NCBI GenBank assembly: GCA_034620365.1
Contig: JAQGEQ010000225.1
Span: forward strand, 1-64,000
Source: Pegea sp. RAD2-039
Taxonomy: Eukaryota; Chordata; Thaliacea; Salpida; Salpidae
Direction: 5' to 3'
DNA length: 64,000 nt
The notes under the pieces are model-generated. The model was not told the DNA's origin, made no database searches, and saw only the letters and a list, made by a program, of their open reading frames with translations. This document shows positions 1,736-64,000 of the stretch, piece after piece (positions within the stretch are counted from its first letter, which is position 1; each line of letters begins with the position of its first letter). Made by a program: the position numbers and the translations under genes.

Positions 1736-2055
1736 AGATATTTTATATGTTTACCAGAACTTGTCACTTCAATATCTTTTGGTTGACAGTTAATTGAAAT
1801 ACTAATTTCGCTAAAACTTTTTTTCTATTTCTAAACATTCTGTCAATTTATCAGTTACATGTTTGCGTCAAAATAAATTTTCAACATAAATTATTTTGAT
1901 GTTTCTATTTGTACTTCGTATTTGATACAAAAATTTCAATAAAAGAATAACACTTTTAATTCTTTGGTTTTGTGTTTAATAAGAAATTCTCTAGCGCCCA
2001 GTAGTGGAAAAGGAAAATTTGGAATTATTGTTTTATAAAGTTATTTTTTTAACTC

Positions 2056-32918: not shown

Positions 32919-33502
32919 TAAGGTTCTTCAAATATTTCTTAAATAATATTTTTGAGGATTATAATTTCGTAAAAAATCTTACCAAATAAAACTTTGCTAA
33001 AAAAAATTGACAAATAATTATGACAGTATAAAAGATTAATTTTACTTGTTTGTTAAATCAATTTTATTATTGTTTTAAAACTTGTTGATTTCTTTGAATG
33101 GAAATCTTTTAGGGATTTTTACTGTTTCTAAATCCTTCTGTAAAATAATTGAAATTTAAAGAAATAAATAAAGGAAGAAACAGTATATATAGAACTTCAA
33201 ACCAATAAAGTTCAAATTTAAAATCATAATTTAAAGCTTTTACTAAAGCAACTTTAAAAATAGTTTTTAATCTTTTTAAAATATTTGTATTTTTTATTAG
33301 CTTCAAACAGATGAGATTTGAAACAATGTTTTGATTATTGTATTTAGCTTTAAAGTATCTTTAAAGTATTTAAGATTTTTCTATTAGATATTAGAGAGTT
33401 TAATTAAACTCTTTTTGAAGTTTTATTCATTTGCAAAGTAATAAAATCATTCTCATTTTTAAGAATTTAATTTTGAAGATAGTAAAATCAGAAATATCAA
33501 AA

Positions 33503-36132
33503 ATGAAGCAAGAGAGCTCCAAGACACAGATTGAGATGGAAGAAATCACATTAAATGATGATTTCCAAGTAAGAAGCAGAAACTTGATGAGATCTTCTTA
33601 ATCTTTAAAAAATTTCTTTCAGGTTGAACCTAGTTCAGTTTCAATGACTAATTCAAATGATAATGGAAGCAATCAAAGAAAATGGGACAACAAATTCCAG
33701 TATATGCTTGCTCAAATTGGATTTGCTGTTAGTTCATCAATCAGCTGATTTCCAACAAATATTTCATTTCTTTCATCTTACAAAAGAATCTCGTAAAAAA
33801 CTTTGAATTTCTACAGGTGGGACTTGGAAATGTTTGGAGATTTCCTTACCTCTGTTCCAAACACGGCGGAGGAGCTTTTCTTGTTCCTTATGTTACCATG
33901 GTGATCCTTCTGGGACTCCCGCTCTTTTATCTGGAAATCGCAATAGGACAAAGAATTGGTTTGGGAAGTTTAGGAACTTGGAAACAAATTGATTCTCGTT
34001 TATATGGGATCGGTTTATCATCTATCATGGTAAAAACTCGATAAATTTCGAAAGTGATATTTTTAACAGTTTCTCTTTTCTAGGTTTGTTTTTGTATATC
34101 TTGGTACTACAATGTATTAATAGCTTGGGCTTTACACTACTTCAGTCGTTCGTTTTTGTTAAGTAAAGGTGGTCAATGGATGACGTGTCCAATACTTAAC
34201 TCTACATCAGGACAAAGTAAGTCTTCTTGACGAGATTTCCAACTTTTCACTTCGAGTTTAGTTGCACAGGAATGTGGTGAGAAAGGTTCAGCTGAATATT
34301 ACTTCTCCAGAACAACGTTAGATGTTTCTGAAAGTATCAATAACTTTGATCATCCTGTTTGGCCTATCTTTATTACACTCGTGGTCGCTTGGTTTATTGT
34401 GTTTATTTGCATCAGAAAAGGAATTACAAGCTCGAAAAATGTTTGAAAATCAACGAGCAAATTGAATATTTAACTGAAATATTACTTTTAGGTTGTTTAC
34501 ATCAGTGCAATTCTTCCATATATCATCCTATTTGCTTTTCTCATATTTTCATTTACTTTAAATGGAGCAAAAGAAGGAGTCATCTACTTATTCTATCCTG
34601 ATGTTAGTAAACATTTCTTCATTAATTTCTTTGACTTTTAAATTTTCATATTTGCAGTTTTCAAGAGTTTCAGATATTAATATGTGGAAAGATGCAGCCA
34701 CTCAAATCTTCTTCTCTTTAGGACTTGGATACGGAGGAGCTTTAGCATTCTCATCTTACAATGATCAAAAGAACGATTGCAAAAAAGATGGAATCATTGT
34801 GACTATTGTCAACTGTGGTACTAGTATCTTAGCTTCTGTAGTTGTATTTGCAATCAGTGGATTTCGTGCTTATAATCGAGCAGAAGATTGTGTTTCAATG
34901 TCAGTTAGATCCTAACTTTTAAGAACTTTTAATAAATTGTTTAAATGCAGGAGCTTAAACAAGACTAATGACTTTATCAGCCTTCATCCTGAAGTTTATG
35001 ATAGAAATGTGACGAGTTTGGATTATTCTAAAGCCTTTGAAAAAATCAATTTTACAGTTTTTGATTTGTATGATCCAAACACAACTAACCTCAATGTAAG
35101 ATTTGTTTGTGAGACTTTTACAAGATTTTAACAAGTTCTTTCTTCAACAGTCGTGGGTGAATCTTTCTCTAACTTCATGTACGATTGAAAATGAGCTAAA
35201 AACAGTGAGTATTCTACACTTTACTAGAATGATCTTTCATTTGAAGTATTTGTGACAGGCCTAGAGTGGACCAGGATTAGCTTTTATCGTATTTGCTGAA
35301 GCAGTGAAAAATCTTCCTTTCCCTACTATATGGGGAGTTTCATTCTTTGCTATGCTCATCAATCTTGGTATTGGATCTATGTTAGGTACCATGGAAGGAA
35401 TCATCACACCTTTGACTAACCTCTTTCCTCGATTGAATGTTCTTTTAATCACATGTAAAAATTGAGTTTTGTAAAATCTTTAACAGTTATTTGAATCATT
35501 GAATATTTCTAGCTGTTATTTGTTTATTTAATTTTGCTTGTGGAAGCGCATTTACTTGGCGAAATGGTTCATATCTGATCACTATTATGGATGATTATGT
35601 TGTTCCTATTCCTCTATTGTTAATTGCTTTGATGGAAGTCATTGGAGTCTGTTACTTTTATGGTTATGAAAGGTAAGTATAAAGTTGATATTTATCAAAC
35701 TAACTTGGAATGATTTTCAGATTTGCAATGGATATCGAAGATATGTTAGGAGCAAAACCATTTGTTTACTGGAAGTTCACTTGGAAGTTTATTGCACCTT
35801 TATTAACAGCAGTCATGTTTATTTCTTCAATTTATGGACTACTTACAAAACCTATGATGTATACTGCAACTTTAGTATCCGGTTCAATAAGTAAGTTTGT
35901 TGATCTGTTACTTCGATTAAAAATCTCTTAATCTTCTTATTGTTCAGATCTTTCTTATCCAATTTGGGCTGTTGCTATTGTTGTTGTTCTACTTTTTGTA
36001 TCACTTGCTTTTATCCCATCTCTATTTATCATTGAACATTGTACATCAAGTTAGTGAAGGAATTGTTTAATGAGTAAAATTAGTTTTTAATTGATTTATT
36101 TTACAGAAAACAAGCCGAGAAGAAGAAACTAA
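33503..36132 (+). CDS. SLC6 Na+-dependent neutral amino acid transporter-like protein, copy 1
   Basis: About 13 exons encode roughly 665 residues with twelve predicted membrane helices. SLC6 proteins import amino acids or transmitters across the plasma membrane with Na+. Diagnostic segments are [18 protein letters not shown] in TM1 (Na+ and substrate site), [27 protein letters not shown] in TM6, [13 protein letters not shown] in TM7, [14 protein letters not shown] in TM8 and [28 protein letters not shown] and the TM8 segment fit the B0AT/NTT4 (SLC6A15-20) branch better than the GABA or monoamine branch. The TM8 exon must start at CCTAG|AGTGG; using the nearer ACAG site would give a stop. The C-terminus is either TSS or, through a last 26-nt exon, the basic KNKPRRRN. 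AATAAA is at 36,238-36,243. It looks intact. Confidence 0.9.
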
Positions 36133-36587
36133 ATTGGTTTTCGACTTCCGTTTTTCTAAATCGTTCTTTTTAAATCTTCTTGATTCTTCTCAACTTTTTA
36201 TAATCGATCACAAGAATTTCATTTCAATTATTTTTTAAATAAACCAAAAAAACATCTAAATTTTGTTTACTTATTTGTCAAACTTTGAAAATAATTTGTA
36301 TTTTTATCATTTATTGATTTAGAAATTTGTAAAGCGAGAAGTTGAAAAAATCTTCTTTACATTCATCTGTAGATTTGAAGTTTAAAAATAATTAAACAGA
36401 TTCTATTCAGTCTTCGTTTTCTAGATAAGCAGTTCATGAAGAACTAATATTTGAGCAAAAAAACTTTTTAAGTTTAATTTAATTCTTTTTCTATTCTAAA
36501 CGAATTTTTGTTCTAAACAATCACCAAAGATTTGTCTGCAAACCAGATTTCTTCTTAGTTTTTTAGTCAAATAGTTTTTATTAGTTA

Positions 36588-36728
36588 ATATATTTGTTAC
36601 AATAAATGCAAAGAAGGTTGTCTGAAAAGAGCATTTCTCACTAACACACATTTTCATAAATAATATTTATTAAGTTGCAAATATACACATGCCATTTCGA
36701 CAGCATTCAAAACATATAAGCGTACGAG
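36588..36728 (-). mobile_element. LINE 3' tail inside the left arm
   Basis: A diverged copy of the CR1/Jockey-like 3' UTR (gttacaataaatgcaaagaagg ... ctaacacacattttcataa). The mirror copy lies at 38,300-38,441, so it was part of the segment before the inverted duplication. Confidence 0.8.
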
Positions 36729-36860
36729 TTGTATAATCAAATCACATCCAACTTCAATGTTGGATTAGTTAGTTTAGATATTTCATACTTCTCCAAGTTT
36801 GAAGTCTTTTTGATAAACTTTTTAACAATCTTAGGTCAATTTTTGATTTTTTCTCTTTCT

Positions 36861-36930
36861 TATAGTATTAACATTCTATGTGATTGTTCACTGTTAATAT
36901 GTTTTGAGGACTACTGAAATACCATGTGTT
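36861..36930 (+). mobile_element. Inverted LINE 3' UTR scrap at the palindrome spacer
   Basis: About 70 bp (attctatgtgattgttcac ... tgaaataccatgtgttac) matches the reverse complement of the LINE 3' UTR at about 42,965-43,035. It therefore has the opposite orientation to the tail at 36,588 and sits at the inner edge of the left arm. Confidence 0.7.
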
Positions 36931-36967
36931 ACATAGAAATTAGAATATATATTTTTTTTTAAATTTG

Positions 36968-37545
36968 GTCTGTTGATTCACTTCATTTTATTTAACTTTT
37001 TATATTGGCAAGACAGATTAAGAAAATCTATTTTGAAACATTTTTTTACCTTCTATTCCAGATTCCCGCTAAACAGTCTTTCAGGAAATTTCTGCGTGTG
37101 TGGATAACCTATTTTTTGTCTCTCTTTTTTTATTTATTTATTTCACTCAGGTCAAGTATAAATTTTTTATTTATTTATAAGGAAGTAACTTTATATTGTT
37201 TGTTTATTATATTAGTATAAGAAGTTATTTGCTTAAGTATTTTTGATCTAAAATAATTTTTCTGAAATATAAGTTTTTTTTAATCTTTTTATATTTGCAA
37301 TAGTTTACTTGAAAATATCCTAAAATTGTAATTTATTTTAAATTAAATAAATTAATTATTTGTTGTTTTAATGAATAGTAGATAAATATTATGATGTATT
37401 TTTGAACTAATGTTTTGTATAATATCTTTTTTATGTCACTATTATCCATTAATATTAGTTTTTAGAAACAATATTTTAAACTTTTTTTTATTTATTTTCA
37501 ATTTTTAAACTTGATGTTGTCTAGTATTTTTATTAGTTTCATATT
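36968..37545 (+). repeat. Direct repeat of 44,470-45,048, copy 1
   Basis: About 580 bp of AT-rich noncoding sequence shared in direct orientation with 44,470-45,048. It is diverged over the first 200 bp and nearly identical over the last 300 bp (from atttgcttaa to gtctagtatttttattag). It lies within the spacer of the SLC6 palindrome. Confidence 0.9.
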
Positions 37546-37739
37546 TATTTATTCGACAATTTCTTATCAAACATTATAAAGTTCATTTTATGTTTATATT
37601 AAAGATTATGAGTGTAATTAAGATGATCCAAAAAAAATCATTGATGCAAAATCAATCGTAGATGAAGTTAAAGAAAGATTTATTCAAGATTGTTATAAAA
37701 TATGTTACAAAGACTTGAAAAAGAAACTTATCTTGGAAA

Positions 37740-38195
37740 GAGACAACTTAATCATTCATAATTGTTATCATATATGATCCATTTCACCAAACAAAGAGAG
37801 ACCCACAAGTGAGGTTAGATACACATATTCCAGCTAAAAAACTTAAGATTGGAAAGCTTTTGATATTTAACAAAATTAGATGTTTAGATTTGACCAACAA
37901 AACATTCAGTCGAGGAAAGAGGTTAATCAAGAATGTGATGATTCCTTCCATCGTGCCTATCATTGATCCTGTTCCCAGGTTTATAAGCATTCCAAAAAAT
38001 GCCGCTCCCCACACAGTAGGCAAGGGAAGGTTCTTTACAGCCTCCGCAAAGACTATAAAGGCCAATCCTGACCCACTATAGGCTTGTCACAAACACTTCA
38101 AGTTATTATCTATCAAGTTGGTGTATAGATAACTCACTGTTTGAAGCTCATTCTCTATTTTGCATGGAGTAAACGAAAGATTGACCCAAGACTGT
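37740..38195 (-). pseudogene. Broken third SLC6 copy in the palindrome spacer
   Basis: Three exon-like pieces parallel exons of the flanking SLC6 genes: SWVNLSFTPCKIENELQT (about 38,190-38,135), [20 protein letters not shown] through [11 protein letters not shown] (about 38,070-37,895), and a piece resembling [19 protein letters not shown]. The third piece carries in-frame stops (TGA for the Arg of WRNGSY, then TAA for a Tyr). Nothing before or after these exons survives. Divergence from the two intact genes is far larger than between them, so this is an older duplicate. Confidence 0.85.
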
Positions 38196-38299
38196 TAAAA
38201 AGTTTATCAAAAAGACTTCAAACTTGGAGAAGTATGAAATATCTAAACTAACTAATCCAACATTGAAGTTGGATGTGATTTGATTATACAACTCGTACG

Positions 38300-38441
38300 C
38301 TTATATGTTTTGAATGCTGTCGAAATGGCATGTGTATATTTGCAACTTAATAAATATTATTTATGAAAATGTGTGTTAGTGAGAGATGCTCTTTTCAGAC
38401 AACCTTCTTTGCATTTATTGTAACAAACAAATAAATTAACT
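38300..38441 (+). mobile_element. LINE 3' tail inside the right arm
   Basis: Mirror copy of 36,588-36,728, again ending at the poly-AT tail (gcatttattgtaacaaac). Confidence 0.8.
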
Positions 38442-38891
38442 AATAAAAACTATTTGACTAAAAAACTAAGAAGAAATCTGGTTTGCAGACAAATCTTTGG
38501 TGATTGTTTAGAACAAAAATTCGTTTAGAATAGAAAAAGAATTAAATTAAACTTAAAAAGTTTTTTTGCTCAAATATTAGTTCTTCATGAACTGCTTATC
38601 TAGAAAACGAAGACTGAATAGAATCTGTTTAATTATTTTTAAACTTCAAATCTACAGATGAATGTAAAGAAGATTTTCTCAACTTCTCGCTTTACAAATT
38701 TCTAAATCAATAAATGATAAATATACAAATTATTTTCAAAGTTTGACAAATAAGTAAACAAAATTTAGATGTTTTTTTGGTTTATTTAAAAAATAATTGA
38801 AATGAAATTCTTGTGATCGATTATAAAAAGTTGAGTAGAATCAAGAAGATTTAAAAAGAACGATTTAGGAAAATGGAAGTCGAAAACCAAT

Positions 38892-41536
38892 TTAGTTTCT
38901 TCTGCTCGGCTTGTTTTCTGTAAAATAAATCAATTAAAAACTAATTTTACTCATTAAACAATTCCTTCACTAACTTGATGTACAATGTTCAATGATAAAT
39001 AGAGATGGGATAAAAGCAAGTGATACAAAAAGTAGAACAACAACAATAGCAACAGCCCAAATTGGATAAGAAAGATCTGAACAATAAGAAGATTAAGAGA
39101 TTTTTAATCGAAGTAACAAATCAACAAGCTTACTGATTGAACCGGATACTAAAGTTGCAGTATACATCATAGGTTTTGTAAGTAGTCCATAAATTGAAGA
39201 AATAAACATGACTGCTGTTAATAAAGGTGCAATAAACTTCCAAGTGAACTTCCAGTAAAAAAGTGGTTTTGCTCCTAACATATCTTCGATATCCATTGCA
39301 AATCTGAAAATCATTCTAAGTTAATTTGATAAATAACAAACTTTATTCTTACCTTTCATAACCATAAAAGTAACAGACTCCAATGACTTCCATCAAAGCA
39401 ATTAACAATAGAGGAATAGGAACAACATAATCATCCATAATAGTGATCAGATACGAACCATTTCGCCAAGTAAATGCGCTTCCACAAGCAAAATTAAATA
39501 AACAAATAACAGCTAGAAATATTCAATGATTCAAATAACTGTTAAAGATTTTACAAAACTCAATTTTTACATGTGATTAAAAGAACATTCAATCGAGGAA
39601 AGAGGTTAGTCAAAGGTGTGATGATTCCTTCCATGGTACCTAACATAGATCCAATACCAAGATTGATGAGCATAGCAAAGAATGAAACTCCCCATATAGT
39701 AGGGAAAGGAAGATTTTTCACTGCTTCAGCAAATACGATAAAAGCTAATCCTGGTCCACTCTAGGCCTGTCACAAATACTTCAAATGAAAGATCATTCTA
39801 GTAAAGTGTAGAATACTCACTGTTTTTAGCTCATTTTCAATCGTACATGAAGTTAGAGAAAGATTCACCCACGACTGTTGAAGAAAGAACTTGTTAAAAT
39901 CTTGTAAAAGTCTCACAAACAAATCTTACATTGAGGTTAGTTGTGTTTGGATCATACAAATCAAAAACTGTAAAATTGATTTTTTCAAAGGCTTTAGAAT
40001 AATCCAAACTCGTCACATTTCTATCATAAACTTCAGGATGAAGGCTGATAAAGTCATTAGTCTTGTTTAAGCTCCTGCATTTAAACAATTTATTAAAAGT
40101 TCTTAAAAGTTAGGATCTAACTGACATTGAAACACAATCTTCTGCTCGATTATAAGCACGAAATCCACTGATTGCAAATACAACTACAGAAGCTAAGATA
40201 CTAGTACCACAGTTGACAATAGTCACAATGATTCCATCTTTTTTGCAATCGTTCTTTTGATCATTGTAAGATGAGAATGCTAAAGCTCCTCCGTATCCAA
40301 GTCCTAAAGAGAAGAAGATTTGAGTGGCTGCATCTTTCCACATATTAATATCTGAAACTCTTGAAAACTGCAAATATGAAAATTTAAAAGTCAAAGAAAT
40401 TAATGAAGAAATGTTTACTAACATCAGGATAGAATAAGTAGATGACTCCTTCTTTTGCTCCATTTAAAGTAAATGAAAATATGAGAAAAGCAAATAGGAT
40501 GATATATGGAAGAATTGCACTGATGTAAACAACCTAAAAGTAATATTTAAGTTAAATATTCAATTTGCTCGTTGATTTTCAAACATTTTTCGAGCTTGTA
40601 ATTCCTTTTCTGATGCAAATAAACACAATAAACCAAGCGACCACGAGTGTAATAAAGATAGGCCAAACAGGATGATCAAAGTTATTGATACTTTCAGAAA
40701 CATCTAACGTTGTTCTGGAGAAGTAATATTCAGCTGAACCTTTCTCACCACATTCCTGTGCAACTAAACTCGAAGTGAAAAGTTGGAAATCTCGTCAAGA
40801 AGACTTACTTTGTCCTGATGTAGAGTTAAGTATTGGACACGTCATCCATTGACCACCTTTACTTAACAAAAACGAACGACTGAAGTAGTGTAAAGCCCAA
40901 GCTATTAATACATTGTAGTACCAAGATATACAAAAACAAACCTAGAAAAGAGAAACTGTTAAAAATATCACTTTCGAAATTTATCGAGTTTTTACCATGA
41001 TAGATGATAAACCGATCCCATATAAACGAGAATCAATTTGTTTCCAAGTTCCTAAACTTCCCAAACCAATTCTTTGTCCGATTGCGATTTCCAGATAAAA
41101 GAGCGGGAGTCCCAGAAGGATCACCATGGTAACATAAGGAACAAGAAAAGCTCCTCCGCCGTGTTTGGAACAGAGGTAAGGAAATCTCCAAACATTTCCA
41201 AGTCCCACCTGTAGAAATTCAAAGTTTTTTACGAGATTCTTTTGTAAGATGAAAGAAATGAAATATTTGTTGGAAATCAGCTGATTGATGAACTAACAGC
41301 AAATCCAATTTGAGCAAGCATATACTGGAATTTGTTGTCCCATTTTCTTTGATTGCTTCCATTATCATTTGAATTAGTCATTGAAACTGAACTAGGTTCA
41401 ACCTGAAAGAAATTTTTTAAAGATTAAGAAGAGTTGAAGATAAAGATCTCATCAAGTTTCTGCTTCTTACTTGGAAATCATCATTTAATGTGATTTCTTC
41501 CATCTCAATCTGTGTCTTGGAGCTCTCTTGCTTCAT
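38892..41536 (-). CDS. SLC6 Na+-dependent neutral amino acid transporter-like protein, copy 2
   Basis: Reverse-oriented duplicate of the gene at 33,503-36,132, with all exons, splice sites and the alternative CCTAG acceptor retained. The TM1 motif [11 protein letters not shown], the TM6/TM7 pair ([13 protein letters not shown]) and the TM8 SGPGLAF segment are unchanged. Replacements noted are AKPLFYWK instead of AKPFVYWK in the TM11 region and KNKPSRRN at the optional C-terminus. AATAAA lies at 38,781-38,786. The two genes are convergent, with their 3' ends toward the spacer. Read-through transcription of either would make RNA complementary to the other. Both seem functional, so dosage gain or very recent duplication is likely. 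Confidence 0.9.
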
Positions 41537-42115
41537 TTTTGATATTTCTGATTTTACTATCTTCAAAATTAAATTCTTAAAAATGAGAATGATTTTATTA
41601 CTTTGCAAATGAATAAAACTTCAAAAAGAGTTTAATTAAACTCTCTAATATCTAATAGAAAAATCTTAAATACTTTAAAGATACTTTAAAGCTAAATACA
41701 ATAATCAAAACATTGTTTCAAATCTCATCTGTTTGAAGCTAATAAAAAATACAAATATTTTAAAAAGATTAAAAACTATTTTTAAAGTTGCTTTAGGAAA
41801 AGCTTTAAATTATGATTTTAAATTTGAACTTTATTGGTTTGAAGTTCTATATATACTGTTTCTTCCTTTATTTATTTCTTTAAATTTCAATTATTTTACA
41901 GAAGGATTTAGAAACAGTAAAAATCCCTAAAAGATTTCCATTCAAAGAAATCAACAAGTTTTAAAACAATAATAAAATTGATTTAACAAACAAGTAAAAT
42001 TAATCTTTTATACTGTCATAATTATTTGTCAATTTTTTTAGCAAAGTTTTATTTTACATTTTACGAAATTATAATCCTCAAAAAACTAAAATTGAAGAAA
42101 TATTTAAAGAACTTT

Positions 42116-58180: not shown

Positions 58181-58204
58181 TCTTTATTGATAAAATAGAA
58201 GTCT

Positions 58205-60901
58205 TCAAAGTTTGACGTATCGTGAAAAAAGACCAGTAACAGGTGAACCAGTTGGAAGACCCGGAAATGAACCTTCAGAGCCAGCAATATCGAGATGAGT
58301 ATACTTCAACTTGATATTTGAATCCAATCCATGCTGAAAGACATCAAATTAGAAGATGAAGAGACGAGAAAGATATACTTTATCAAGTCCAGATGTCATA
58401 ATCATGAAAGCACTGGGACTTTGATGTCCCCGAGGGGTCCTGGTTGACGGGGAGTTGTTACATTGAAGGACATCTTCATAAACAGACTTTCCTGTGAAAG
58501 AACAGATGAAGAGATGAAGATGAGAAAGTTTTTTGAACCTGTGTGGAAGACATAATCTTCACGACGTATCCTAGAGATTTCAAACATGTCTCCAACAACA
58601 TCACCAGCATCTTGAAGTTGTTGGGCATTTCTAATTTGATGAGCTGGTCCATTATCCATAGCAATCTACCATATCAATATCAGAGTGGTCCACATCTACT
58701 TACAAACCACTTACACTGTAACCTTTACCCATTGCAATTATAGCATGACCAGTTAAAGTAGCAATTGTGTAAAGATGAGGATTAGTTGATGTTACAGCTT
58801 TCTCCTTTGCTTCACAAAGACAATCAACCATCGCCATACGACCTTCAGCGTCAGTATTACCAACTCTAACCTAAAAACCACTTATAAACCAGTGAAAGGA
58901 ACCAGTAAACCAGTTACTAACCCGAACACCAGCTCTTGAAGTGATTATTTCATCAGCTACGTAACCATTTGCACCAATACTATTTCTCACCATCGACATG
59001 GTCCCATGAACTTGCAGATGCGATGGTTTAAGAAGTCTCAAAACCTACCATCAAAACACCATAAAAAAACCATCAAAAACACCATCAAAAACACCATAAA
59101 AAAACCATCATAAAAACCATAAAAAAACCATCACTACAAACATGGTAACCAGTTTCTTACCTCAAAAAAACCAGCAACTGCCGAAGCACCACCTTTATCA
59201 CGATGCATACCAGCCATGACACCACCAGCTTTCACATCAGCACCACCTGTGTCGTAGGTGACGCCTTTACCAACCAGGAATAAGGTATCAGTGATCGGTC
59301 CTGACCCTTCGTAGTTCAACTTGACGACGCGAGCGTTATGACGAGGAACATCTGAAGATGAAGAAGTGATGAAGATGAGAAGATGGAGGAAGGAAGGATT
59401 ACTTTTAGCAGCTCTATTAACAGCTCCAAGACACGGATATTGCTCTTCAATCACATCCACATTATCAACAACTTCCACCTGAAACCGAGACATCAGAAGA
59501 AGATCTCTGAGATCAAAAATCATCTCACTGAGATGTTAGATCCTTGAAAATGCTTCGAAACGAATTCAGCGACTTTCGGAGGAGCCATCCTCTCAGGATC
59601 AGATCCCTGAATATCTCGCGTCAAGCTCCTAAACAATAGATGACGTCATCAACGATGATATGACGTCATCAACGATGATATGATGTCATTAACGATGATA
59701 TGATGTCATTAACGACGATATGATGTCATCAACGACGATATGACGTCATCAACGACAATATGACGTCATCAACGACGATATGACGTCATCAACGATGATA
59801 TGATGTCATTAACGATGATATAATGTCATTAACGACGATATGATGTCATCAACGACGATATGACGTCATCAACGACAATATGACGTCATCAACGACGATA
59901 TGACGTCATCAACGACGATATGACGTCATCAACGACGATATGACGTCATCAACGACGATATGACGTCATCAACGACGATATGACGTCATTAACGACAATA
60001 TGACGTCATAAACGACGATATGACGTCATCAACGACGATATGACGTCATCAACGACGATATGACGTCATCAACGACGATATGACGTCATCAACGACGATA
60101 TGACGTCATCAAAACCAACCTGCCGCATTCATAAGCTGTACAAACGTCGCGAAACTTCTCAGGTTCCTCTTTGCACCAAAATCCGATCGCGTTGAGCTGT
60201 AAACATCGAGATGAAGAGTTTGGGAAGATAGATTAGTTGCCTAGCAACCTTAAACGCCTTCTGTGGAAAACTCTCGCGTATTTCGAGCGGAACGTAAAGT
60301 TGTTGAAGAGCGCCCAACGCGGCTACAAGTTGAGCTTGAGGGTACCTGAAGTAGAAGTTGATGGACCTCTAATTCGATATCTGGACCAACCTGGTGTCCG
60401 GTGGAGTTACTAAAAGTGGACTTCTACATCCAGCTTGAAGCGCGCGTTCAACACCCAACATCGCCGCGTCATAGAAGCGTCTGACGTCATCATAATCGCG
60501 ATTTAAAGCTCCTGTTGGTGAAAAGATCTGAAATTGGATATTTTAGGAAGATGCGATGAAGTGAGGTTGGATTACTAATCGACTGAAGATGGATTTGATT
60601 GGGAGAATGCAAGGATTAACTCCAACAGATTTATCAGTCTGAAAAAAGAAGATGAAAAAAAATTAGGAAAAAATGATGAAAAAAAAGTGACTTTTTTAAA
60701 CTCTTCTAAAGGATTTTTCAAGAAATTTAATCCTCCTGTTAGATTATTGATTGAATCTGTGATTAAAATGATTCCATCATATTTAACTGATCCTAATGAA
60801 GCTGCATCAGTTAGTGAACTAGTCACGTGAATATCACAAGGTAATCTACAAAAAGAAATCTTAAATCTTTCACTAAATTGAAATTAACTAACTCACGGCA
60901 T
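58205..60901 (-). CDS. M17-family leucyl aminopeptidase (W07G4.4 type)
   Basis: About 13 exons encode roughly 515 residues. The C-terminal half is the M17 catalytic domain, a two-metal enzyme that removes N-terminal residues from peptides in the cytosol. Metal-ligand and catalytic motifs are intact: FLVGKGVTYDTGG (Lys, Asp), MHRDKGGASAVAG (Asp) and VGNTDAEGRMAM (Asp, Glu, Arg). LTGHAIIAMGKGYS, IAMDNGPAHQ, QCNNSPSTRTPRGHQ and YTHLDIAGSEG place it in the invertebrate group of C. elegans W07G4.4 rather than classical LAP3. The N-terminus starts MPLPCDIHVTSSLTD, and the first exon is 5 nt long. A CATTTCAG acceptor ends 25 nt before the ATG. AATAAA (58,183-58,188) follows the stop. It is third in the same-strand cluster, 165 bp after IGBP1. 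Confidence 0.93.
59040..59142 (-). repeat. ACCATCAAAAAC simple repeat in an aminopeptidase intron
   Basis: The intron before the VLRLLKPSH exon consists of about nine accatcaaaaac / accataaaaaa units. Confidence 0.85.
59641..60115 (-). repeat. 20-bp CRE-palindrome minisatellite, about 23 units
   Basis: Unit consensus TGACGTCATCAACGACGATA, strictly 20 bp with no length drift, fills the intron between the AYECGR and SLTRDIQG exons. Most units contain the perfect palindrome TGACGTCA. Five or six have TGATGTCA, the CpG-decay form, and these cluster in two similar blocks about 120 bp apart (59,661-59,760 and 59,781-59,880), showing a higher-order duplication. Confidence 0.97.
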
Positions 60902-61066
60902 ATTGAAACTTGTTGCTATGAAACGACTGAAATGTTTCGAAGCTCGAAACGACGAAATAATTATTAACTAAACACTTAAACTAACAAAATAACTGCAAAA
61001 AAAATTAATAATCAAACTCAATAGTCTACAAATCGATTATTAAAAAAAAACAGAGACACTAAAAAG

Positions 61067-62044
61067 TTATCCTTTTCTGTAGCGGTTTCCATCTCCTCTT
61101 CGATGAGTGTCTTTAAAATCATCCATACTTCTCTTAGCTTCGATCTTAGAGTCATCATCATCATCACTTTCTTCTTCTTTGCTCTCTGGGACCCCATTTC
61201 CGCTATCAGGGACTCTTCCAGCCGCTACTTCGCGCTCATAAAACTCATCTAGTGTCATTGTAGGCAAACTAGGGTACCCCGCCCCAAATACTGCTGATTG
61301 CATCTTGTCCCTGGTCAACATAAACGGCATTTGACCTCTAGCACCATCTGGTGGACGCCGTGGAGCTTGTTTCTGATGAGAAATACTCTTCATGTATTCC
61401 AACATCTTCTCTTCCTCATTTATTGATCTGATTTCATCAATAATTTCATAAATCCAATCTTTGATTTGAATCAACCAAAGTTGACGTTTTGTGTCATCAT
61501 CTAAAGTATCTTCACGAGATTGTAGTTCTGATATCTTCTCTTTTCTTGCTTTTGCTTCCTTATATCTTCTGATCTTCATGTCTCTACCATCAGCTTGAGC
61601 TTTCAGCTCTTCAGTTTTGCTTCCACCAATTTTCACTTTTTCAACTTTATCGTTTTTCTTCATCAAAATCTCTTCAATCTCATCAACAGGTTCGAAACCG
61701 TAACTTAAACAAAGTTTTAAAAACTTTTTCAAAAACTCTAAACTACTTTCCAATACAGCAGGTCTTTCCGAAGTATCTTTACAAGTCTTCTTCATATGGA
61801 GCTTGCCTAATACAGCAGGGATCAGAATAAACTTCAAATCTCCCGTAGCAACTTCCTCAATTTCTTCATTAGAACTATACAAGTCTAACTGATCAACAAG
61901 TTTGCACAAATGAGTTGTCGATGAAATCGCTGATGTCAGCTCTGATTGATATTTCGTTGATAAAGAAGGTTCAGAAGACTCTTCAATATCTAAATACATC
62001 TTCCAGCAGTCAGTGAACATTTGAGACACTTTCTTATCTTCCAT
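61067..62044 (-). CDS. IGBP1: IGBP1 / alpha4 / Tap42-like PP2A regulator
   Basis: A single uninterrupted exon of 325 codons. The family binds free catalytic subunits of PP2A-type phosphatases and stabilises them, linking to TOR signalling. The N-terminal 220 residues are helical, as in the TPR-like alpha4 fold (starting MEDKKVSQMFTDCWKM, with FILIPAVLGKLHMK and RYKEAKARKEKISEL). The C-terminal part has the conserved TRDKMQSAVFGAGYPSLPTM and LDEFYEREVAAGRVPD segments, then an acidic/basic tail. Length is typical. It is the only intron-free long gene in this window. Its ATG lies one base after the TM2D2 stop on the same strand, so the two ORFs must share an mRNA or be separated by trans-splicing inside the TM2D2 coding region. 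Confidence 0.95.
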   Translation of the reverse strand: MEDKKVSQMFTDCWKMYLDIEESSEPSLSTKYQSELTSAISSTTHLCKLVDQLDLYSSNEEIEEVATGDLKFILIPAVLGKLHMKKTCKDTSERPAVLESSLEFLKKFLKLCLSYGFEPVDEIEEILMKKNDKVEKVKIGGSKTEELKAQADGRDMKIRRYKEAKARKEKISELQSREDTLDDDTKRQLWLIQIKDWIYEIIDEIRSINEEEKMLEYMKSISHQKQAPRRPPDGARGQMPFMLTRDKMQSAVFGAGYPSLPTMTLDEFYEREVAAGRVPDSGNGVPESKEEESDDDDDSKIEAKRSMDDFKDTHRRGDGNRYRKG

Positions 62045-62045
62045 T

Positions 62046-62804
62046 TTAACAATACAAGGACCAGTTACTGTTATCAGCTGGTACTAATTTACCAGTTAGC
62101 AATAAAACAATATCAACAAGCCACCAGACTCCAACTCCACCTAGTGTTAGAAGTTTACCAACCCCAGTTGGAATATAACCCAATGAAAAGCGGTCTACGC
62201 CCAAAAACCCTAGAAAAACTGACTGTAGAAGAACGTTAATGAAACAGGTTCCTGTGTATCTGAAAAATAAAAGTAATTTGTTTTAATATTTTAATAATAT
62301 TTGTGAGAATAAATAAAATTTATAAAAATTGAAACTTCTTTCTAACTTTAAACAGGGGATATTATGTCTTTGAAAGACTCGACTTCCGGCACAATCTATA
62401 GATGTATCAATAACCCGACAAGTCACAGACACAAATTGAGTTGATTTAAAAGTGTATTGATCTGAAGACCTCTATAAAAATCAAACTTTAGGGGGGTGGT
62501 TTATGAATAATTTATAATTACCTTTTTACAGTTGTTCACTGGAATATTAGAAGTTGATTGGTTTTGAGAGTTTGAAGAATTTAAACTTGAAAAGCTTGGT
62601 TCTTCACAAATAATAAATTCAGATGGCCTAGAAAGAATTGATTAGTATTTGATGATTAGAATCAGATTTTGAAACTTACAACAAATAACAACTTATATTT
62701 GGTGACAAAGGGTTTAGATTAAGCGATGAAATGTCACAAAATACTCCGCCAAAAACAAATATCAAAATAAAAATTATTCTTTTTGAAATCAAAATTGAAA
62801 ACAT
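62046..62804 (-). CDS. TM2D2: TM2 domain-containing protein 2
   Basis: Four exons encode about 189 residues. A signal peptide ([20 protein letters not shown]) is followed by an extracellular stretch with conserved cysteines ([37 protein letters not shown]) and two membrane helices joined by the family DRF turn ([20 protein letters not shown], then [19 protein letters not shown]). The end [11 protein letters not shown] matches TM2D2 rather than TM2D1 or TM2D3. These membrane proteins are linked to Notch signalling and phagocytosis in flies. A TTTTTGTCTTTAG acceptor ends 13 nt before the ATG. The TAA stop (62,048-62,046) is followed after one base by the IGBP1 ATG. Confidence 0.93.
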
Positions 62805-62829
62805 TAGTTCAACTACACTAAAGACAAAA

Positions 62830-64000
62830 ATAAAAGTCAAAATACAAAAAATCATTTATTTAAATTCATAAATTAATAACTTGTTAATCATAAATATATA
62901 TAAAAATATATCAACTTACTTAATAAAAGATTTATAAAGATTTTTTAAATATACTTTTTATTTCAATATATAAAAAAGCTTAACAATTTATAATAGCAAA
63001 AATTTTAGAATATTTTAAATATTAATATATCAAGTTTAAAATTGTTTTAACTTAAAAATATTCTAGTAACTGATTATTAAGTAAATAAAACTAAATATTG
63101 CTCTAAAAAAACTTTCATTTAAAAATATAAATAAAAGATATTAAAAAAACATCCTATTTATAAAATCTTTGAAAAGAACAAAGTTCAAATAAACTAAATA
63201 AAAGTTTACAAACAGTTTTGTAGTTACTAATTTTATATTCAAAATAAAAGAATATTATAACCATTATAAAGCTTTTTATATAAAGAAATATAAAAAATCT
63301 AATTATGAAACTTAATCATTACATAAAGTTAAATTTTATAAGTCAGAAAAAAAGTAAAAATTATCTAAAGTTTGTAATTTAAGCATTTTATTTACTTGAA
63401 ATATTATTAATAAATCTTTAATTTCAAAACAACCAATTTGCAACAATCTTATTTCGTTTTAAAATTGACAAAAGTTAAATATGAAAATGGTGGAAATATG
63501 AAAGGCAGATTTAATAGGAAAATATTTATATATGAATTTTAATTAAAAAATTATAAATAATAATTTTGAATAATTTCAAAGTATACCACTTAACAAAATA
63601 TCGCAAAAAATTTCAAAATCCAAAAACATTGATAATATCTAAACATAAAAGACTTATTTGAAAATATTGATATTAAATAAATTTGTGTATATGTGAAATA
63701 TAATAATAAAGTTTCTCTAAAATATTTTACTATTTTTAAAAAGTTAAAGTTTTTATCAGCTACTATTTAGTCAAAGGACATTTTTGTCGTAACCTATAAA
63801 ATTTTAACAAAATCATTTGTAGGTTTTCTTCTTTGTTTTGTCATTTTAAAAACAATATAAACAAATTGAAATTAGAAAAATAAAAGTGATTATATTAAAC
63901 GAAATTAAATCGCGGTTGATTTAGGTTGATAAAGGACTTATATCAGTTGAGTTATTCTATAGTAAAACTAACTGTAGTTAGGTAATGGGCAGAATCGAAA
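62830..64000. other. Very AT-rich DNA with no supported gene
   Basis: Upstream of TM2D2 I saw no exon, repeat or RNA gene up to the window edge. Confidence 0.6.

Follow-up and report, generated by a model that had tools for sequence, protein, structure and literature searches.

Organization of the TM2D2-IGBP1 locus

Within the window, the whole 64,000-nt stretch of DNA that was analyzed (contig 38, bases 1-64000), we find two genes in tandem on the minus strand whose products belong to distinct families (TM2 and TAP42) and whose ORFs are separated by 1 nt. The features of this pair are as follows.

62680..62804, minus strand: TM2D2 exon 1, with the ATG at 62804-62802 in a weak context, GAACTAATGT
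62522..62627, minus strand: TM2D2 exon 2, without ATG, flanked by TTTCTAG and GTAATT
62347..62471, minus strand: TM2D2 exon 3, without ATG, flanked by TTTATAG and GTTAGA
62046..62259, minus strand: TM2D2 exon 4, carrying the TM2 domain and the TAA stop, without ATG; acceptor TTATTTTTCAG, leave-one-out score 10.4
62048-62046, minus strand: TM2D2 stop codon TAA, read from the sequence
62045, minus strand: single-base spacer, A, between the TM2D2 stop and the IGBP1 start
62044-62042, minus strand: ATG of IGBP1
61067..62044, minus strand: IGBP1 (alpha4/TAP42) coding sequence, one exon, 325 aa, identified by ORF, Pfam, and PDB match; ATG in a strong context, GTTAAAATGG

The minus strand at 62052-62038 reads TTGTTAAAATGGAAG, TM2D2 ending in TGT TAA (62051-62046). 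The succession of TM2D2 stop, one A, and IGBP1 ATG given in the original prediction was borne out when the sequence was read again; both gene ends look natural, and the junction is genuine. The locus sequence is present once in the genome (105.7 Mb, 387 contigs).

The four TM2D2 exons, separated by GT..AG introns, join in frame into a 570-nt coding sequence of 189 residues that is free of stops up to the TAA, and the last exon matches the TM2 domain (PF05154) with 53.2 bits. A profile search of the genome returned three TM2 matches, this locus among them, which we take from their C-termini to be TM2D1, TM2D2, and TM2D3; gene names other than those derived from Pfam or PDB are likewise our own assumption.

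IGBP1 covers the full TAP42 profile (1-346 of 346, 244.6 bits), and in the PDB it matches Immunoglobulin-binding protein 1 best (E = 9.8e-23). Since it is the sole TAP42 match in a profile search of the genome, with no second, intron-bearing parent, we rejected the idea of a retrocopy. The unusual origin suggested for this gene from its lack of introns finds no support either, given this single match and the presence nearby of other ORFs that are long, uninterrupted, and matched by Pfam domains. The premise that IGBP1 is the only long intron-free gene fails outside the window: the next 200 kb hold nine other uninterrupted ORFs (185 to 795 codons, picked by eye), all nine with Pfam matches, though at least one of these ORFs (PIP5K, 159703-160257) is the final portion of a larger gene and cannot be counted as intron-free. 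By eye, words of the GATGACGTCA type recur in several regional ORFs, where they read "DDVT".

Absence of internal ATGs from the TM2D2 coding sequence

The 570 nt of the TM2D2 coding sequence contain a single ATG, that of its own start, and none besides in any of the three frames. The next ATG after it is that of IGBP1, 571 nt on when counted along the spliced RNA, or 760 nt on in the DNA. A first-order Markov model predicts 8.7 ATGs for TM2D2, and none of 5000 simulations produced zero. The original prediction overlooked this ATG-free coding sequence, which we consider the main feature of the locus.

For comparison, we took ten other coding stretches from the same genome: nine uninterrupted ORFs (IGBP1 included) and the paralogue TM2D3. 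The ORFs derive from a set of 27 that run from stop to stop over 180 codons or more, reduced by eye to 12 and then to nine by dropping two that are repeat-rich and one that seems to be a partial gene. Each of the eight besides IGBP1 has a Pfam match above the cut-off and is thus coding, which does not make all of them complete genes: 159703-160257 matches the end of PIP5K only, and the ORF at 192349 a PH domain only. These ten stretches have a mean of 0.022 internal ATGs per nucleotide. They never go more than 262 nt without an ATG, and each of their 5,526 overlapping 567-nt windows contains at least one. For the paralogue TM2D3, the count is 15 ATGs over 621 nt, its start included. Measured backward from a start codon to the preceding ATG, the 760 nt of IGBP1 is the largest value among 56 ORFs (next 318, median 80.5); these comprise every ORF with 100 or more codons from its first ATG in 264 kb, unselected and so not all genes.

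The picture is more modest when the TM2D2 protein sequence is held fixed. Redrawing its synonymous codons gives an expectation of 2.3-2.6 out-of-frame ATGs and a probability of zero of 0.025-0.048, and with the same codon table two of nine control ORFs are depleted about equally or more (P = 0.044 and 0.011). The strong ATG contrast therefore rests largely on amino acid content, and at fixed protein sequence the lack of ATGs in TM2D2 is only mildly unusual, by a test that was picked after the sequence had been seen.

At the level of codons, TM2D2 has 12 with TG as their first two bases and 14 with AT as their last two, none of them positioned to form an ATG; in control genes, an ATG arises at 25 of 95 and 145 of 435 such codons, respectively. 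Were positions free, the chance of zero ATGs from these 12 and 14 codons would be ∼9e-5. One example is the motif P[AS]DGS, in which Asp-Gly is encoded by GATGGT, with its ATG, in both paralogues; TM2D2 has Asp-Asn there, encoded by GATAAC. Either drift of the protein chanced to remove the ATGs of TM2D2, or selection acted on residues. The stronger proposal, that the TM2D2 protein was reshaped over all 189 codons, at synonymous sites and at residue pairs that make ATGs, so that its neighbor could be translated, a first cistron of unusual length and wholly free of AUGs being obligatory for expression of the only alpha4 gene found here, is one we would advance only tentatively and consider doubtful. 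The three TM2D2 introns are also ATG-free, as would be expected half the time (P = 0.52).

Start codon contexts and upstream ATGs

The TM2D2 start, with C at -3 and T at +4, is weak, and the IGBP1 start (AAAATGG) is strong; among reference starts of the same genome, 11 out of 12 have a purine at -3. Under three context scorings of 14 starts, TM2D2 ranks third, second, and second lowest, and IGBP1 highest, fourth, and highest, in a ranking based on just 12 reference starts that are not RNA-proven and of which one or two fall below TM2D2. Two features lie close upstream of TM2D2.

62853..62855, minus strand: ATG in frame with TM2D2 and 17 codons ahead of the start chosen here, in the context AATAAATGA with T at -3
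62818..62829, minus strand: acceptor-like TTTTGTCTTTAG, 13 nt before the TM2D2 ATG, score 4.4

The ATG at 62855 is a possible alternative start for TM2D2, provided that the 5′ end of the mRNA lies further upstream, and there are further upstream ATGs at 62869 and 62891. The acceptor-like site could possibly serve as the acceptor of a 5′ UTR intron or as a trans-splice site, and splicing there may leave a very short leader.

Splice acceptors, spliced leaders, and 3′ signals

We scored potential acceptors against the 15 local ones of the TM2D2 and M17 aminopeptidase introns, the M17 introns having been placed by eye (leave-one-out scores 0.2 to 10.4, median 7.7). The site GATAACAG, at which IGBP1 had been suggested to be trans-spliced, scores -0.9, below all 15, and we reject it. 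The three AGs nearest the IGBP1 start (62083, 62077, and 62067) score 0.2 at best. No good acceptor is found between the cistrons, where there is zero room, or near the IGBP1 ATG. AGs with better scores are found 165-215 nt upstream of that ATG, at the beginning of exon 4 or within it (62259, strong; 62222, score 5.5; 62209, score 4.2), so a modified trans-splicing model is conceivable. The statement that a 5′ UTR or an acceptor cannot fit at the junction holds for the space between the ORFs only: a 5′ UTR of IGBP1 can sit within TM2D2, and TM2D2 exon 4 may be read as leader sequence for IGBP1.

We know of no spliced leader for this genome. The C. elegans SL1 is absent from it within two mismatches, for which reason a nematode operon was set aside. 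The Rfam SL1 model has no match in the genome, the model being silent in all 14 controls as well; nematode cuticle collagen and arthropod cuticle domains also have no genome match, and neither matched in any of the 14 controls. One locus (L003; contig 1, 1384340-1387458) holds four 5S rRNA genes in a short tandem array of 365-368-nt units, with a truncated 5S copy in one spacer. Nothing clearly resembling a spliced leader is seen beside the 5S array in L003 by eye or in L003 and L004 against Rfam, two of the four overlapping array loci.

On the 3′ side, we note the following.

61419..61424, minus strand: AATAAA inside the IGBP1 coding sequence, the sole AATAAA from the TM2D2 start to the start of the downstream gene
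60902..61066, minus strand: 165-nt gap from the IGBP1 stop to the M17 aminopeptidase gene (its ATG taken as 60901-60899), without AATAAA

AATAAA signals occur just beyond the end of M17, at 58188 and 58160, and a three-gene unit TM2D2-IGBP1-M17 is possible. Inside the M17 gene, window positions 59640-60112 form an array of 23.6 copies of the 20-nt unit ATGACGTCATCAACGACGAT.

A second stop-start junction in the same genome

MOCS2 is bicistronic elsewhere, and this prompted a search of the genome for MoaE. It led to the junction below.

L031 (contig 246), locus positions 2030-2036, minus strand: MOCS2A/MOCS2B junction, reading TGA, one T, ATG

MOCS2A is a ThiS-like protein of 85 residues with a Gly-Gly end (ThiS, 46.7 bits), and MOCS2B matches MoaE with 84.5 bits over the 88 residues given. 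There is one internal ATG in the 258 nt of MOCS2A. Both human MOCS2 proteins are reported to be made from one mRNA by leaky scanning, from ORFs that overlap by 77 bp, compared with the one-base gap here (PMC9607355). The arrangement of stop, one nucleotide, and ATG is thus seen a second time in this genome, in a pair that elsewhere is a known leaky-scanning bicistron, although MOCS2A and MOCS2B are subunits of one enzyme and TM2D2 and IGBP1 belong to unrelated families. This was the only other gene pair looked for; a composition-based scan for abutting gene pairs over 264 kb was too noisy, and the TM2D2-IGBP1 locus itself was not among its results.

Interpretation of the locus

We consider it probable (∼0.6) that the two genes are expressed from one bicistronic mRNA and that IGBP1 is translated by leaky scanning. 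A single mRNA would have its 5′ end upstream of TM2D2 and its 3′ end past IGBP1. Some scanning ribosomes would begin translation at the weak ATG of TM2D2 and produce that protein; the remainder would bypass this ATG, meet no other ATG in 571 nt, and initiate at the strong ATG of IGBP1. We infer all three elements here: an mRNA that spans both ORFs, leaky scanning, and selection for the loss of ATGs. The modest depletion at fixed protein sequence and the small set of reference starts count against this interpretation, as do further points. The three ATGs upstream of TM2D2 would have to lie outside the mRNA or be bypassed, IGBP1 has no AATAAA between itself and the next gene, and the MOCS2A comparator does contain an internal ATG.

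The main alternative, which part of the evidence would also suit, is an IGBP1 mRNA of its own, with a 5′ end in or just before TM2D2 exon 4, arising from an internal promoter or through spliced-leader trans-splicing at the exon 4 acceptor (62259) or at 62222/62209; exon 4 would then be the 5′ UTR of IGBP1, and the TM2D2 mRNA would end inside or after IGBP1. The acceptors at these positions (one strong, two fair) and the AATAAA within IGBP1 are consistent with such an arrangement, which would also account for the absence of ATGs from exon 4. Several regional starts have a pyrimidine-rich AG within ∼60 nt upstream (judged by eye, with no background rate), and flatworm acceptors are described as common to cis- and trans-splicing (PMC12582326). 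A separate IGBP1 mRNA does not require exons 1-3 to be free of ATGs, yet this is a weak point, with P = 0.07-0.25 given the protein; its trans-spliced form is further countered by the missing C. elegans SL1 and the poor score of GATAACAG. On balance, we judge a separate IGBP1 mRNA rather unlikely. Of the two options in the original prediction, one mRNA or trans-splicing, the first is the better half, in a form in which leaky scanning is favored over the reinitiation proposed there. This preference follows from the absence of ATGs in any frame between the two starts and from the weak first and strong second context.

Reinitiation at the adjoining IGBP1 ATG by ribosomes that have finished TM2D2, again on one bicistronic mRNA, would make use of the 1-base spacing between stop and start, and influenza B M1/BM2 is reported to reinitiate at an overlapping stop-start (PMC3035654). 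However, it would work without a weak first start and without a lack of ATGs in the coding sequence distant from the stop, and the 189 codons of TM2D2 exceed the length of 55 codons above which, according to a review, upstream ORFs are predicted to block reinitiation (PMC4705651); given this limit, we hold reinitiation here to be improbable. Least credible of all is an error of assembly or gene model by which the junction or the ATG-free stretch would be absent from the animal. We worked from the assembly sequence, which leaves such an error conceivable, but IGBP1 matches its family over the full profile, TM2D2 exon 4 matches TM2, the spliced frame is stop-free, and the locus has a single genomic place. 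If an A of the AAAA run had been miscounted, both TAA and ATG would still be there, so a simple indel error there neither creates nor destroys the junction.

Comparison with known systems

Shared bicistronic messages are known in animals and are uncommon. Dicistronic transcripts of Drosophila, stoned being one of two, were reportedly described by Wall et al. in 2005; compared with these, TM2D2 is without AUG in all three frames. The best reading of TM2D2/IGBP1 appears to be a further case of the known leaky-scanning bicistronic type. In Drosophila sloth1/sloth2, as reported, the ORFs are spaced by 5 nt, a nonoptimal ACACATG precedes an optimal CAAAATG, and reporters support leaky scanning, a better first context lowering the output of the second cistron (PMC9681215). 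TM2D2/IGBP1, spaced by 1 nt, has the same succession of weak and strong starts (ACTAATG and TAAAATG), but joins unrelated proteins of 189 and 325 aa, whereas sloth1 and sloth2 are described as small related peptides of 79 and 61 aa. Unlike in that pair, the TM2D2 cistron has three introns, and the arrangement is known here from sequence alone.

Green-algal bicistronic loci are described with an AUG-depleted ORF 1, a start context weaker than that of ORF 2, and generally short inter-ORF sequence, together with demonstrated transcripts and support for leaky scanning in vivo (PMC11892635). TM2D2/IGBP1 bears the same marks in an animal genome, but with evidence from sequence only. In C. elegans SL1-type and Ciona operons, the poly(A) site is reported to abut the trans-splice site with zero intercistronic sequence (PMC12582326). 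An intercistronic stretch is missing here too; unlike in those operons, the coding sequences themselves abut, and we found neither a good acceptor at the junction nor a spliced leader.

If our reading is right, the membrane protein TM2D2 and the PP2A chaperone IGBP1 would be tied to one mRNA in this lineage, with their ratio set by one start codon. The locus would then be a natural test of two questions: how long a first cistron may be in an animal and still be crossed by leaky scanning, and whether amino acid sequence, too, is subject to selection against AUG. Annotation pipelines may fuse two such genes or lose one of them. TM2D2 is not named in what a limited literature search for a TM2D2/IGBP1 operon returned.

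Other features of the window and genome

A search for cox1 gave no match in the whole genome, with positive controls that were prokaryotic only; either the mitochondrial genome was left out of the assembly or it is unusual. Elsewhere in the window, positions 33000-42039 form a large, near-perfect inverted duplication, whose arms match at 100% over 2094 nt and 597 nt, at 98% over 914 nt, and at 96% over 269 nt. An ORF of 117 codons occurs in it twice in identical form, once on each strand (34562-34915 and 40110-40463), and seems to resemble part of an SLC6 transporter.
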